Both the position numbers and the translations under genes were made by a program. A stretch of DNA of 32,053 nucleotides from Acidobacteriota bacterium (GTDB lineage Bacteria; Acidobacteriota; Polarisedimenticolia; Gp22-AA2; AA152), in the NCBI GenBank assembly GCA_022616665.1, contig JAKEFJ010000003.1:1-32053 (forward strand), written 5' to 3'. Below are positions 22,229 to 32,053 of the stretch, piece by piece (position 1 is the first letter of the stretch; each line of letters starts with the position of its first letter). The notes beneath the pieces are model-generated. The model did not search any database. It had not been told where the DNA came from and saw nothing but the letters and a program-made list of their open reading frames with translations.

Positions 22229-24655
22229 TTGTCCCGACTCTACCGCTACATCCTGCGCGAGTTGCTTTCTCCCTTCTGCCTCGGGCTCTCGATTTACACC
22301 TTCGTGCTCCTCATGAATGCGATCTTCAGCGTCACCGAGTTCGCAATGAAGAGGAACATCCCGACCATTGCTGTCCTCAAAATCATCGCGCTTTCGCTTC
22401 CGCAATTGCTGGCGCTCACCATTCCGATGTCCGTCCTGCTCGGGGTCCTGATAGGGATTGGCCGGCTGTCGGCGGATAGCGAGATGATTGCCCTCAAGGC
22501 CTGTGGCATTGGCTACCGCCGGGTCCTGGGACCTGTTTTGAGCTTGGGAATCCTGGGATGGGTCCTTTGCAGTGCATTGGTCATCTGGGTCGAGCCACAG
22601 TCAAACTACCTCAGACACCGCCTGACATCGCGGATCGTTCTCAGCTCGGACTTGCGCAAGGAGCTGAAGCCTCGAGTGGTTTTCGAAGAGATTCCCGGCC
22701 TTCTCCTCTACGCCGACAAGGTTTACGCCGGCGGAAGCAGCCTCGAAAAGGTGATTCTGTTTCAGAGTGATCCCGACGAGCGGGATCTGCTGACCACGGC
22801 TCGTAAGGGAAGGCTGGAATACGATTCACGTAGCGGGCGCATGCGGCTCTTCCTCGAAGAGGGAGTGACCCACCGGTCGGATCCCCAGCAGGCGGAGGAT
22901 TACCAGGTCTATGGAGCCGATCGCCAGATGGCATTGCGAGAGCCGGATGCCGGGTTCAAGCTGCGGACCAGGCTCTTGAAGGAGCCTCAACAAAAGAACT
23001 TCCGGGAGCAGACTCTCAAGGAGTTGAAGGTCGCCTACGAAAAAGCTGGATCCCTGGAGCACGTTCCCACCCGCCAGCGCCTGCAGGCAGCCATCGAGGT
23101 CGTTCGGCAGGAAAAATTTGCCCTCCCTGTCGCCTGTCTGGTCTTCAGCTTTGTCGGATTTCCGTTGGGAGTCTTCAATCGCCGGAGCAGCAAGTCTTCG
23201 GGAATTGCCATCAGCCTCGGAGTCGTTCTCTTCTACTGGCTCATTCTCACCATCGGTGAGCAGCTGGCCACGGAGGGAAAGCTCTCTCCCCTGTTTGCGC
23301 TCTGGTCGGCAAATGTGATCTTCACTGTTTTGGGGGCCGTGCTCATTCGTCGCCGCGAGCGGCAGGAGACCGGAGTCGGCAGCCTAGGAGTGTTTGCGGC
23401 CTCAGTTCGTCGGTTCATGGCAGCAGGCAGGAAGCTCAGCAGGGCGTTGGTTGCCAAGCCCTTGTCACAGACCGAGACCACGCCAAAGCCGATTCCCGAA
23501 GCGGCCGAGGCTCGAAGCAAATTCTCCGGGGGCCCTGCCTTTTCCTCGATTTTGGATCGCTATGTGCTGAGCAGCTATTTGCGATTCCTGTTGGTGACCG
23601 GCCTCTCCATTTACGTCATATTTCTCGTCGTGGATTTTCGTGAAATGATCGATGACGTCATCAATGGTCGCATTCCCGGCTCGGTTGTCCTGAGTTTCTT
23701 CAAATATCGCTCCCCCTGGGTCATCAATCAGACCCTTCCCGTCGCTTGTCTTATCGCGACCTTGCTTTCTTTCGGCGTGCTCTCGCGCTTCAACGAGATC
23801 ACAGCCATGAAGGCCGGCGGGCTCAGCCTCTATCGGATATGCCTGCCCGTGGTGGGAGCGACACTTTTTCTTTCCATATTCGCTTTCGGAGTCCAGGGAT
23901 ACGTGATGCCCTTCTCAAACCAGCGTGCCAGTCAGATCCGGGATCAGATCCGAGGACGCCCCGGGCGCAGTTACTCGCAGCCGCAACGCAGGTGGATCCA
24001 AGGAGAGGACGGGGTCTTTTACTCTTTCAAGACCTATCAGCGGACGACTCCCGGATTTCTACCGGGATCGGCTGATGGGACATTCCAGGGTTTCAGTGTG
24101 TTGCGCCTGGATCCCGGCAGCTATGCGGTAAAGCAGAGGTTCTACGCACGGGAAGCGCTTTGGCGGGAAGGTGGATGGATCCTGCGGAACGGCTGGCAGC
24201 GATCGTTTACTCCTGAGGGGGGAATCGGGTCCTTCGAGGCATTCAAGGAGAAGCAGGTCTCACTGCCTCTCAATCCTGCGCGATTCATGGGGGATGTCCG
24301 GACACCGGATCAGATGAACTTCAACCAGCTGAAGGCTTTCATTAAGGACCTTCAGAAACGGGGTTACTCGGTTCAGGAGCTGCTCGTCGAGCTGCATGAA
24401 AAAATCGCGCTCCCGTTTGTGTCAATGGTCATGGTGATTCTCGGGCTGCCATTCGCATTCCGAAGCGGCAAGAAAGGGTCCCTTTACGGGATTGGCCTGG
24501 GCATCGGGCTCGTGGTGGTCTACTATTTTGTCTTCGCAGTTTTGAGCGCCCTGGGACAGATCGGACTCTTTCCACCTTTCTTGGCCGCCTGGGCTCCCAA
24601 TATCCTCTTTGCCGGGATTGGGACCTACATGATGCTCTCAGTGGGTCAAACTTAG
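22229..24655 (+). CDS. Fused LptF-LptG lipopolysaccharide export permease
   Basis: LptF and LptG are the two membrane subunits of the LptB2FG ABC transporter that extracts lipopolysaccharide from the inner membrane. Here both lie in one 808-aa chain. The first half (about 1-375) has the YRYILRELLSPF start, LPQLLALTIPMSVLLGVLIGIGRLSADSEMIALKACG, a periplasmic beta-jellyroll region and C-terminal membrane helices. A linker of about 60 residues rich in Arg and Ser, with PKPIPEAAEA, follows. The second half (about 438-808) repeats the plan with LDRYVLSSYLRF, LPVACLIATLLSFGVLSRFNEITAMKAGG and VMVILGLPFAFRSGKKGSLYGIGLGIG. TTG is the start, with GGAG 7 nt upstream. Its stop overlaps that of the convergent HEAT gene. 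No lptB is in the window. Confidence 0.93.
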   Translation: MSRLYRYILRELLSPFCLGLSIYTFVLLMNAIFSVTEFAMKRNIPTIAVLKIIALSLPQLLALTIPMSVLLGVLIGIGRLSADSEMIALKACGIGYRRVLGPVLSLGILGWVLCSALVIWVEPQSNYLRHRLTSRIVLSSDLRKELKPRVVFEEIPGLLLYADKVYAGGSSLEKVILFQSDPDERDLLTTARKGRLEYDSRSGRMRLFLEEGVTHRSDPQQAEDYQVYGADRQMALREPDAGFKLRTRLLKEPQQKNFREQTLKELKVAYEKAGSLEHVPTRQRLQAAIEVVRQEKFALPVACLVFSFVGFPLGVFNRRSSKSSGIAISLGVVLFYWLILTIGEQLATEGKLSPLFALWSANVIFTVLGAVLIRRRERQETGVGSLGVFAASVRRFMAAGRKLSRALVAKPLSQTETTPKPIPEAAEARSKFSGGPAFSSILDRYVLSSYLRFLLVTGLSIYVIFLVVDFREMIDDVINGRIPGSVVLSFFKYRSPWVINQTLPVACLIATLLSFGVLSRFNEITAMKAGGLSLYRICLPVVGATLFLSIFAFGVQGYVMPFSNQRASQIRDQIRGRPGRSYSQPQRRWIQGEDGVFYSFKTYQRTTPGFLPGSADGTFQGFSVLRLDPGSYAVKQRFYAREALWREGGWILRNGWQRSFTPEGGIGSFEAFKEKQVSLPLNPARFMGDVRTPDQMNFNQLKAFIKDLQKRGYSVQELLVELHEKIALPFVSMVMVILGLPFAFRSGKKGSLYGIGLGIGLVVVYYFVFAVLSALGQIGLFPPFLAAWAPNILFAGIGTYMMLSVGQT

Positions 24656-28611: not shown

Positions 28612-29883
28612 TCAGGTTCCCTCCGTCCAACTGTTGAGGTACCGCTCCTGCTCCTCGGTGAGGCGATCGATGACGATGCCCATGGAAGCCAGCTTCAGGC
28701 GTGCAATCTCCCGATCGATTTCAGGAGGGACGGAATAGACGCCTTTCGCTAGGCTGCTTCCCTTGCGCACCAGGTGCTCCACCGAGAGCGCCTGGTTGGC
28801 GAAGCTCATGTCCATCACCATGGCGGGGTGCCCCTCGGCTGCCGCCAGATTGATGAGTCGTCCTTCCCCGAGCAAGTGGATGCGCTTTCCGTCGGAGAGC
28901 GTGAACGACTCCACAAACTCTCGGAGGCGTCGAGGCGCGCCGGATAGAGCCTGCAGAGCCGGGATGTCGATCTCCACATTGAAGTGCCCCGAATTAGCCA
29001 GAATGACGCCATCCTTCATTGCGGTGAAGTGCTCCTTGCGGAGCACGTGCTTGTTGCCCGTGAGGGTCACGATCACATCGGCGCTCTTCACCGCCTCCGA
29101 AAGCGTCGAAACGGTGAAACCGTCCATGACCGCTTCGAGGGCTTTCACCGGCTCCACTTCGATGATGACGACATTGGCACCCAAGCCGCGCGCGCGCTGG
29201 GCGACTCCGCGACCGCACCAGCCGTAGCCGCATATCACGAACTTCAGGCCCGCCACCAGGAGGTTTGTGGCCCGAATGATCCCGTCCAGGGTGCTCTGGC
29301 CCGTGCCGTAGCGGTTGTCGAAAAGGTGTTTCGTGTCGGCGTTGTTGACTGCGATGATGGGATAGGCCAGGGCCCCTTCGGATGCGAGGCTCTCCAGGCG
29401 GATCACTCCGGTGGTGGTTTCCTCGGTTCCGCCGAGGATCCCCGGCAGCAGGTCCCGCCGCTTGGTGTGGATCATCGAAACCAGATCCGCTCCGTCGTCC
29501 ATGGTGATCTTGGGCTTGCTGTCCAGCACCGATTCGATGTGCCGATAGTAGGTCTCGTGATCCTCACCCTTGATGGCATAGGTGGCAATGCCGTGCTTCA
29601 CGGCCAGGCACGATGCCACGTCATCCTGGGTGGAGAGCGGGTTCGAAGCGCACAGCGAAACCTGCGCCCCCCCCGCGGCGAGGGTGGTGGCCAGCACGCC
29701 AGTTTCGGTGGTCACATGCAGGCACGCCCCGATGGACATTCCGCGCAGCGGCTTCTCCTTCTCGAATCGCTGCCGGATGGAGCGCAGCACCGGCATGTTG
29801 TGCTCCGCCCATTCCATGCGGTCCTGACCTTTTCCGGCCAGCGCCGGTTCCTTAACGTGAAACTCCGCAGCCTTCCCAACCAC
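28612..29883 (-). CDS. ahcY: Adenosylhomocysteinase
   Basis: AhcY splits S-adenosylhomocysteine, the inhibitory by-product of methylation, into adenosine and homocysteine in the cytoplasm. The 423-aa protein has the NAD-binding GYGWCGRGVAQRARGLGANVVIIEVEP loop, substrate residues in HVTTETGVL, TMDDGADLV, ETTTGVIRL and NNADTKHLFDNRYGTGQS, and SGHFNVEID. The length fits the shorter form without the extra ~40-residue segment of some bacterial enzymes. GTG 29883 is the start, with GGGGAG 8 nt upstream. It lies 28 nt after metK, so SAM is made and SAH removed from one transcript, and 10 nt before the phosphodiesterase/TPR gene. Confidence 0.96.
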   Translation of the reverse strand: MVGKAAEFHVKEPALAGKGQDRMEWAEHNMPVLRSIRQRFEKEKPLRGMSIGACLHVTTETGVLATTLAAGGAQVSLCASNPLSTQDDVASCLAVKHGIATYAIKGEDHETYYRHIESVLDSKPKITMDDGADLVSMIHTKRRDLLPGILGGTEETTTGVIRLESLASEGALAYPIIAVNNADTKHLFDNRYGTGQSTLDGIIRATNLLVAGLKFVICGYGWCGRGVAQRARGLGANVVIIEVEPVKALEAVMDGFTVSTLSEAVKSADVIVTLTGNKHVLRKEHFTAMKDGVILANSGHFNVEIDIPALQALSGAPRRLREFVESFTLSDGKRIHLLGEGRLINLAAAEGHPAMVMDMSFANQALSVEHLVRKGSSLAKGVYSVPPEIDREIARLKLASMGIVIDRLTEEQERYLNSWTEGT

Positions 29884-29911: not shown

Positions 29912-31063
29912 CTAAAGACCCGCGTCCCGCCGAATGGCGTCCGCCTTGTCGGTTTTTTCCCACGTGAACTCGGCTTCCGTGCGCCCGAAGTGCCCGAAAG
30001 CGGCCGTCGCCCTGAAGATCGGCCGGCGCAAATTGAGGTGCTCGATGATTTCCTGGGGCTTCAGCCGGAAGTGGCTGCGCACCAGGTCGTGAATCTTGGC
30101 TTGCGGAATTTTGCCCGTTCCGCTGGTGTCGACCATGAGTGAGACCGGCTCCGCCACTCCGATGGCGTAGGCCACCTGAACCTCCGCCCTCTCCGTCACG
30201 CCGGCGGATACCAGGTTCTTGGCGATGTAGCGGGCCATGTAGGACGCCGAGCGGTCCACCTTGGTCGGGTCCTTTCCCGAGAAGGCCCCTCCGCCATGGT
30301 GTCCCCAGCCGCCGTAGGTGTCCACGATGATTTTTCTACCGGTCACGCCGGTATCACCCTGGGGCCCGCCCACGGCAAAGCGCCCGGTGGGGTTGATGTG
30401 GTAGCGAGTCTTTGCATCCAGGAGATCCTCCGGGAGGTTTTTCAGGATGATCTCCCGCTTGATTTCATCACGCAACGTCTCGATCTTCGTGGCCGCATCG
30501 TGCTGGCAGGAAACCACGACGGTGTCGATGCGCACCGGGCGGAATCCCTCGTATTCCACCGTGACCTGGGATTTGCCGTCCGGTCTCAAGTACGCGAGGC
30601 GCTCTTCGCGCCGGGCACGGCTCAGGGCCCGGGTCAGACGGTGGGCCAGCATGATGGGAAGGGGCATCAATTCCGGCGTCTCCCGGCAGGCGAACCCGAA
30701 CATCATCCCTTGATCGCCCGCGCCGCCGGGATCCACGCCCATGGCAATGTCGGGGGACTGCTCGTCGATGGCCGTGACCACCGCGCAAGTTTGATAATCG
30801 AATCCGAACTTGGCCCGCGTGTACCCTACTTCCTGGATGGTGGCTCGGACAATTCGCGGGATGTCCACATAGCTTCTGGTGGTGATTTCCCCCGCCACGA
30901 ACGCCAGTCCGGTGGTCACGAGGGTCTCGCAGGCGACGCGCCCCACGGAGTCCTTCTCGAGCACGGCATCCAGAATGGAATCCGAAATCTGGTCCGCGAT
31001 CTTGTCCGGATGCCCCTCCGTGACCGATTCGGACGTAAAGAGATACTTGCCCTGGTTCTCCAT
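29912..31063 (-). CDS. metK: S-adenosylmethionine synthetase
   Basis: MetK makes S-adenosylmethionine from ATP and methionine. The 383-aa protein has the family signatures GHPDK (17-21), [53 protein letters not shown] and [19 protein letters not shown] 31063 is preferred over ATG 31069 because AGGAG (31075-31071) gives spacing of 7 nt for the former and 1 nt for the latter. A strong promoter and a GC-rich leader with alternative hairpins lie upstream. It is the first gene of the metK-ahcY operon. dnaE ends on the same strand about 120 nt before it, and the metK -35 overlaps the dnaE stop codon. Confidence 0.97.
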
Positions 31064-31086
31064 TCGCATGCTCCTATGACGGTTCC

Positions 31087-31130
31087 AACCCGTGGCGGGC
31101 TTCCCGCCCTTCCGGCGGGACTGCCGGGTT
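31087..31130 (-). ncRNA. Structured metK leader with competing hairpins (candidate cis-regulatory RNA)
   Basis: On the minus strand an outer stem AACCCG (31130-31125) with CGGGTT (31092-31087) encloses two alternative inner pairings. GGCGGG (31108-31103) can pair with CCCGCC upstream (31119-31114), giving a 7-bp stem with loop GGAAG, or with CCCGCC downstream (31099-31094) across a 3-nt loop. The two pairings exclude each other. The outer stem ends 11 nt upstream of the AGGAG ribosome binding site. This is switch-like architecture in front of a SAM-making gene. No published SAM-riboswitch consensus was recognised. Confidence 0.5.
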
Positions 31131-31163
31131 TTGGGATGCCTCTTCAGTATTGCGCGAGCGGCT

Positions 31164-31193
31164 ATTCTAAGAAGGACGGCTCCATTCTGTCAA
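31164..31193 (-). promoter_or_regulatory. metK promoter
   Basis: On the minus strand TTGACA (31193-31188), an 18-nt spacer and TAGAAT (31169-31164). Expected transcription start is near 31157, giving a leader of about 94 nt. The -35 overlaps the dnaE stop codon (31192-31190). Confidence 0.8.
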
Positions 31194-32053
31194 CGATAGG
31201 AGACCGAGCCCTTCCCCAGGACCCGCTCCAGGGCCTGGGTCAGTCCCGGATTTGGTCCGATGCGCAAGGGAATCTGCGGGCGAACCGTCAGCCGGTACCC
31301 TCCTGGCTGGACCACCCGGATGAGGACCATGCAGTCTCCGGGGTTGTCCATGAGCAGCCGGTGCACCTCTCGCGCCCGCTCCTCCCCGAATCCGTCCGCG
31401 CTGACCTCCAGGATCAAGCGGCTGGCATGGCGCTCCGCGGCCCCCGCCAGGGGAGAGATTTCCTCCGCCACGAGCCTGAAGCGGCCGTCTTCCAGCTCGG
31501 CCTTTCCGCGAACCACTACCGCGGACTCATCCACCAAGCGGGCTTGGGAAACCTTGTACAGCTCTGGGAAAACCATGACTTCCACTCCCCCTTCCAGATC
31601 TTCCAGGGTGAAAGTCGCCATCCAGTCTCCCCGCCGCGTCTTCCGTTTCTTGAGCGCTGTGACCAGTCCTCCCAGGCTCTGCGTCCTGCCGGACATTTCA
31701 GGTGTGAGACTTCGAGTTGTCGGCCCCTGCAAGGCTGCGAGCGTCTGCTGATGCTCGCTCAGGGGATGGCCGCTGATATAGAAGCCGAGAGTCTCTTTCT
31801 CAAAAGCCAGTCTCTCGCGTGAGCCCCATTCCTCCGCCGCTGCGATAGCCGGTGCCGTTTCCGCCGGGTGATCGGCGCCATCAAACAGGCTGGCCTGTCC
31901 GGCCGCCAGATCCCGGGATTCCTTCTGAGCCGAGGAGACCACCGCGTCCAGGGTGCGATAGAGGGCCGCCCGAGGCAATCCGAGGCCATCCAGCGCACCG
32001 CTTTTGACCAGCGACTCGAGAGCCTTTCGGTTTAGGGTCCGGCTGTCCACCTC
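31190..32053 (-). CDS. dnaE: DNA polymerase III alpha subunit, C-terminal part (partial)
   Basis: The replicative DNA polymerase subunit; only the last 287 residues are in the window and the gene continues beyond 32053. Visible are NRKALESLVKSGALDGLG (the helix-hairpin-helix region that follows the polymerase core), the conserved linker ...KETLGFYISGHPL, and an OB-fold (LGGLVTALKKRKTRRGDWMATFTLEDLEGGVEVMVFPELY), then a C-terminal tail. The polymerase active site and PHP domain lie outside, so completeness cannot be judged. The in-frame GTG at 32050 is not the start: the frame stays open to the edge. metK follows on the same strand with its own promoter. Confidence 0.93.
   Translation of the reverse strand, partial: EVDSRTLNRKALESLVKSGALDGLGLPRAALYRTLDAVVSSAQKESRDLAAGQASLFDGADHPAETAPAIAAAEEWGSRERLAFEKETLGFYISGHPLSEHQQTLAALQGPTTRSLTPEMSGRTQSLGGLVTALKKRKTRRGDWMATFTLEDLEGGVEVMVFPELYKVSQARLVDESAVVVRGKAELEDGRFRLVAEEISPLAGAAERHASRLILEVSADGFGEERAREVHRLLMDNPGDCMVLIRVVQPGGYRLTVRPQIPLRIGPNPGLTQALERVLGKGSVSYR

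Follow-up and report, generated by a model that had tools for sequence, protein, structure and literature searches.

The window analysed here is a 32,053-nt stretch that corresponds to contig 111 in a draft genome of 2.8 Mb (G000). To judge from named MetK relatives, this genome probably belongs to the phylum Acidobacteriota, and its genus is a small one of uncultured bacteria. It was compared with two further genomes of the same genus (G001 and G002; genus n=3), one more genome of the same family f1 (G003) and the class as a whole (n=41). On its minus strand, the window carries the 3' end of dnaE, encoding DNA polymerase III alpha (31190..32053; C-terminal match to NF004226 and NF005298), upstream of and on the same strand as metK, encoding methionine adenosyltransferase (29912..31069; TIGR01034, 574 bits against a cut-off of 309.4). 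The latter is followed by ahcY, encoding adenosylhomocysteinase (28612..29883; TIGR00936, 621.8 bits against a cut-off of 497.6), which is presumably cotranscribed with metK. dnaE and metK are separated by a gap of 120 nt. The ATG of metK is located at 31069 and is preceded by the Shine-Dalgarno (SD) sequence AGGAGC (31070..31075, minus strand), which reads GGGAGC in G001 and AGGAGCC in G002 and G003. metK is a common target of SAM riboswitches, several classes of which have been found in front of this gene.

Elsewhere in the window (22229-24655), a single 808-aa open frame was shown to match both the LptF and the LptG NCBIfam models. As LptF and LptG are usually encoded by two genes, this frame represents a possible fusion of two LPS-export permeases.

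The metK promoter and its leader

Upstream of metK, a promoter was identified that consists of a -35 hexamer TTGACA (31188..31193) and a -10 hexamer TAGAAT (31164..31169), both on the minus strand and separated by 18 nt. The -35 hexamer overlaps the dnaE stop codon TGA (31192-31190), and the promoter scan returned an 11/12 match. This is the sole promoter-like site within 30900-31400 (500 bases), with 0.0 such sites expected in shuffled sequences. TTGACA and the 18-nt spacing are retained in G001, G002 and G003 (with TAAAAT as the -10 hexamer in G001 and G002, and TAGAAT in G003), while only 2 of the 18 spacer letters are identical within the genus. The first-pass annotation of this DNA had described a switch-like leader between a strong TTGACA-18-TAGAAT promoter and the metK SD, a position that is real and whose promoter is kept in relatives. 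Within 30900-31400, no intrinsic terminator (a GC stem with a trailing U run) was found, so that an effect of the leader on transcription is not required.

Overlap between promoter and upstream gene was also observed across the order, where TTGAC(A/T) of the metK promoter and the stop codon of the preceding gene share bases (L006, L008, L015, L016, L020, L022 and L030). In the window, the gene that shares its stop codon with the promoter is dnaE, and this fusion of gene end and promoter is conserved in the order.

Alignment of the three genus leaders revealed a conserved element of 48 nt, GAGGCNUCCCNNANCCCGGCNGUCCCGCCGGAANGNCGGGAAGCCCGC (31095..31142, minus strand), in which 41 of the 48 columns are identical. 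In the same three genomes, the fourfold-degenerate sites of metK are only 47-50% identical in pairwise comparison, and the sequences flanking the element have diverged (at most 5/21 identical positions in the leader 5' of the element and 0/20 positions 3' of it). Against a background identity of 30-35%, the conservation of the element corresponds to a binomial P of about 1e-12 to 1e-15. Such identity at near-saturated neutral divergence and between diverged flanks points to a functional element. Strong purifying selection on the element within the genus is thus supported, and the leader very probably contains a conserved cis-regulatory element.

Each of the three genus genomes contains one copy of the element, always at metK. 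A REP-like repeat, which would require many copies, was therefore rejected for this single-copy sequence. An N-terminal extension of MetK was also considered, since the frame upstream of metK is open in each genome; however, the distance from the 34-nt core of the element to the metK ATG (25, 30 and 39 nt in the three genomes) places the element in differing frames, and the element is therefore not such an extension. In a genome-wide search with a shorter core, matches elsewhere did not rise above those of a reversed control, which led to the rejection of an operator regulon, and the near matches that were inspected have no relation to methionine genes. Similar sites at G001:C85 and G002:C253 are located where a PHP-domain-like coding region ends (by translation), and one at G000:C46 lies in an unrelated context. 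Two models derived from the element (R1 and R2) retrieved only the three genus members across the class and 396 genomes of the phylum. The next matches in the phylum had E-values of 0.005 or worse per genome, the two best of these being located inside pyruvate-dehydrogenase-type coding regions (by translation).

Alternative pairings within the leader

Two CCCGCC segments flanking one GGCGGG segment, inside a longer AACCCG/CGGGTT stem, had initially been taken to form two stable hairpins that exclude each other. This layout is present on the minus strand as described (CCCGCC, 31119-31114; GGCGGG, 31108-31103; CCCGCC, 31099-31094; outer stem AACCCG, 31130-31125, with CGGGTT, 31092-31087, enclosing CCCGCC/GGCGGG), and the hairpins do exclude each other. 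However, the window leader folds no more stably than its dinucleotide shuffles (-36.3 versus -32.3 +/- 3.4 kcal/mol; z -1.17; 20 of 200 shuffles as good), so that exclusive hairpins are what such a composition yields. Nor are the stems conserved: the outer stem retains 6/6 pairs in the window genome only and is not kept in G001 or G002 (72% of cells over the three genomes), the CCCGCC/GGCGGG stem loses one pair in G002, and the GGCGGG/CCCGCC stem is one pair short in each of G001 and G002. While a switch-like choice of pairings is still plausible, it is a different architecture, and not the hairpin pair originally named, that is conserved.

Unguided folding of the three genus sequences with RNAalifold yielded a consensus consisting of a helix P1, formed by GGCNUCCC and GGGAAGCC, and a hairpin S1, CCGGC/GCCGG. 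P1 comprises seven pairs with a 1x1 mismatch and closes an internal loop, NNANC/AANGNC, and S1, CCGGC(NGUCCC)GCCGG. The 5' strand of P1, referred to here as block 1 (GGCAUCCC; 31133..31140, minus strand), is complementary to the metK SD, and its seven P1 pairs are invariant in the three genomes. The 3' strand (31098..31105, minus strand) itself resembles an SD sequence (GGGAGC in G001). S1 (31112..31127, minus strand; 31127-31123 paired with 31116-31112) is invariant at 5/5 pairs, its sole variable base being located in the loop. In the internal-loop strand AANGNC (31106..31111, minus strand), the A, A, G and C residues are conserved within the genus.

P1+S1 leaves each of the seven variable columns unpaired, and the structure was recovered at full strength when these columns were forced to be unpaired. 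Random placement of seven variable columns performed as well in 0.25% of trials (G000 base) or 3% of trials (G002 base), and the alifold energy compared with column shuffles gave P=0.06. Alignment of related metK leaders, proposed in the first-pass annotation as a check for covarying pairs, produced a strongly conserved stretch but, in the strict alignment of three genomes, no two-sided change at any pair inside the element, as both helices are invariant throughout. The minimum-energy leader folds differ among the single genomes; in G000, the minimum is lower than P1 by about 7 kcal/mol and lower than the anti-SD pairing by about 3 kcal/mol. Overall, the P1+S1 structure is moderately supported by these predictions. 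An H-type pseudoknot (CCGGC/GCCGG with UCCC/GGGA), all pairs of which are invariant, was set aside as a possible alternative state, since P1+S1 covers more columns.

In G003, the promoter is kept and the sequence of the element is not. For the G003 leader, a GCGG/CCGC stem enclosing CCGGC/GCCGG is possible, with AACGGC, at the place that corresponds to AANGNC, preceding the closing strand; such a fold would imply three two-sided changes in P1. In shuffled sequences, the structure together with the motif occurred in 0.2% of cases and the structure alone in 7%. Although it is tempting by eye to align G003 as a fourth member, the covariance model of the element did not match the G003 leader, and G003 was therefore not counted.

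A further stem may enclose block 1, formed by ACUG (31145..31148, minus strand) as a possible 5' strand and CAGU (31123-31120), and resembles P1 of the SAM/SAH riboswitch. This ACN/NGU stem (three to five pairs) reads ACU/AGU, ACG/CGU and ACC/GGU in the three genomes, with the third base matching variable column 21 each time (U-A, G-C and C-G). Shuffled upstream sequences equalled this match in about 0.8% of trials (P about 0.008, uncorrected for the several columns tried). As the stem was sought post hoc, guided by the arrangement of the SAM/SAH riboswitch, its covariation is suggestive only.

A proposed switch at the metK Shine-Dalgarno sequence

Block 1 is complementary not only to its P1 partner, but also to the metK SD, with which it could pair (GC-N-UCC with GGAGC) through five pairs with a single bulge in 3/3 genus genomes; the complementarity is longer in G002 (GGC:GCC) and G001 (UCCC:GGGA). 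The probability of this pairing in full-leader ensembles was 0.98 in G002, 0.63 in G001 and 0.003 in G000, where a competing fold is better by 3 kcal/mol. Block 1 is thus a candidate switching strand, likelier than the hairpins described initially. In one predicted state, block 1 would pair with the 3' strand of P1, the helix would close around CCGGC/GCCGG and the SD would stay free. In the other, block 1 would pair with the SD, GGAGC(C), in the manner of the pseudoknot strand of the SAM/SAH riboswitch, thereby turning metK off. The choice between these pairings would govern translation initiation of metK and, through metK, that of ahcY, the signal possibly being SAM or SAH.

Judged by its sequence, the element resembles an RNA switch, so far undescribed and limited to one genus, that would turn metK on and off. 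As the main reading, we tentatively propose a cis-regulatory RNA, restricted to this genus, that would control metK translation by alternative pairing of block 1, with an estimated probability of roughly 0.4. Its action as an RNA and on translation, the use of both states and SAM or SAH as the signal are parts of this model that we infer.

Conservation alone would equally fit a site recognised on DNA or by a protein. An operator for a repressor of metK transcription (SahR/SamR-like or other) could be provided by the inverted repeat TCCCG-N9-CGGGA, which is invariant in the three genomes and lies just downstream of the start site, as would suit a repressor, and SAM-cycle genes are often under SahR/SamR control in Proteobacteria (PMC4239095). 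This explanation is unlikely, however, given that SahR/SamR regulons have several targets, whereas no second good copy was found in four genomes, and that the 48 conserved nucleotides are asymmetric and exceed a usual operator (20 bp for SahR and 24 bp for SamR; PMC4239095). Moreover, the changes in G002 break the longer repeat TCCCGCC/GGCGGGA, while P1+S1 stays intact in the RNA. Somewhat less unlikely is a structured leader that is bound by a protein or acts without a ligand (in autoregulation, as an mRNA stabiliser or as a translational attenuator) instead of being a riboswitch. Strong conservation and structure would fit such a leader as well, and the absence of a terminator-like site is consistent with this possibility, but the conserved unpaired residues A13, C15, A32, A33, G35 and C37 and the loop GUCCC exceed what a plain stabiliser would need, and metK is a typical target of small-molecule feedback.

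That the alternative hairpins merely reflect the composition of an ordinary GC-rich leader, the fall-back explanation in the first-pass annotation, would agree with the near-random fold energy and with the poor conservation of those hairpins. This explanation is nevertheless largely refuted by the strong conservation within the genus and is very improbable. A slightly better, though still highly unlikely, candidate is a divergent SAM/SAH (RF01727) riboswitch, with an ACN/NGU stem, a loop containing GGCNUCC and a pseudoknot to the SD. It would share the gene, the pseudoknot pairs and the bulge with the element, and the possible flanking stem with covariation at column 21 is in its favour. Conversely, RF01727 finds nothing in the leader at E-values up to 10, the loop would be longer in such a reading, and AAC before GGC as well as U after UCC are absent.

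Comparison with known SAM and SAH riboswitches

The claim that the leader belongs to none of the known SAM/SAH classes holds, as neither these nor any other Rfam family matched the window leader. RF01727 (SAM/SAH) returned nothing in the G000-G003 leaders at E-values up to 10 or in the window at 31060-31165, RF01724 (SAM-Chlorobi) returned nothing in the leader even at an E-value of 10, and RF00162 (SAM-I) and RF01057 (SAH riboswitch) matched neither the leader nor any other site in the four family-f1 genomes.

SAM-I is a widespread SAM switch. Without matches in the four f1 genomes, it occurs in f2, a sister family belonging to the same order, where 5/8 genomes carry one copy each (L115, L117, L118, L120 and L121). 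The one f2 locus that was inspected (L118) precedes a ThiF/MoeB-like adenylyltransferase gene, and not metK. A genome from the same class that consists of a single contig (L123; G021:C1:1823622-1823707) contains a sub-threshold match to the SAH riboswitch (34.6 bits against a cut-off of 37), which is possibly a divergent SAH switch.

SAM-Chlorobi (RF01724), found in leaders of metK and ahcY in Chlorobi, resembles the element in being a lineage-restricted, conserved leader of a metK/ahcY operon behind a strong promoter, and its ligand, too, was not found in preliminary tests (PMC2864571). It differs from the element in sequence, and its model misses the leader. In the SAM-VI and SAM-III metK leaders, mutually exclusive stems set access to the SD (PMC6914780), as is proposed for the element; these riboswitches are three-way junctions, and the element has no Rfam match.

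A close parallel concerns the SAM/SAH riboswitch (RF01727) of Rhodobacterales metK leaders, in which the loop GGCUUCC pairs with GGAGC through five pairs with one bulge and hides the SD on ligand binding (PMC7367207). The element likewise lies in a short metK leader, would regulate translation, and shares a GGC-N-UCC-like strand that is complementary to the SD GGAGC over five possible pairs and one bulged base. In contrast, compared with the published construct (PMC7367207), it is without the ligand-site bases AACGGCUUCCUGGC, lacking both the AAC that precedes GGC and the U that follows UCC, which form part of the >97% conserved SAM/SAH ligand site (PMC7367207). Also unlike RF01727, it includes a further, invariant GC-rich segment that has a hairpin of its own, and it occurs in another phylum. 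As judged from these differences, the element is not a member of the known SAM/SAH class.

One hallmark of riboswitches, the conservation of a structured leader in front of a relevant gene, is seen here, with moderate support for the structure. Rare, lineage-restricted SAM-riboswitch classes are expected, yet hard to see, and the element is a possible further class. It may constitute a new, genus-limited translational riboswitch class that senses SAM or SAH, with a convergent GGC-N-UCC:GGAGC block and a different aptamer, although we consider this specific version rather unlikely. If true, the strand with which the SAM/SAH riboswitch blocks the SD would have a convergent counterpart in another phylum.
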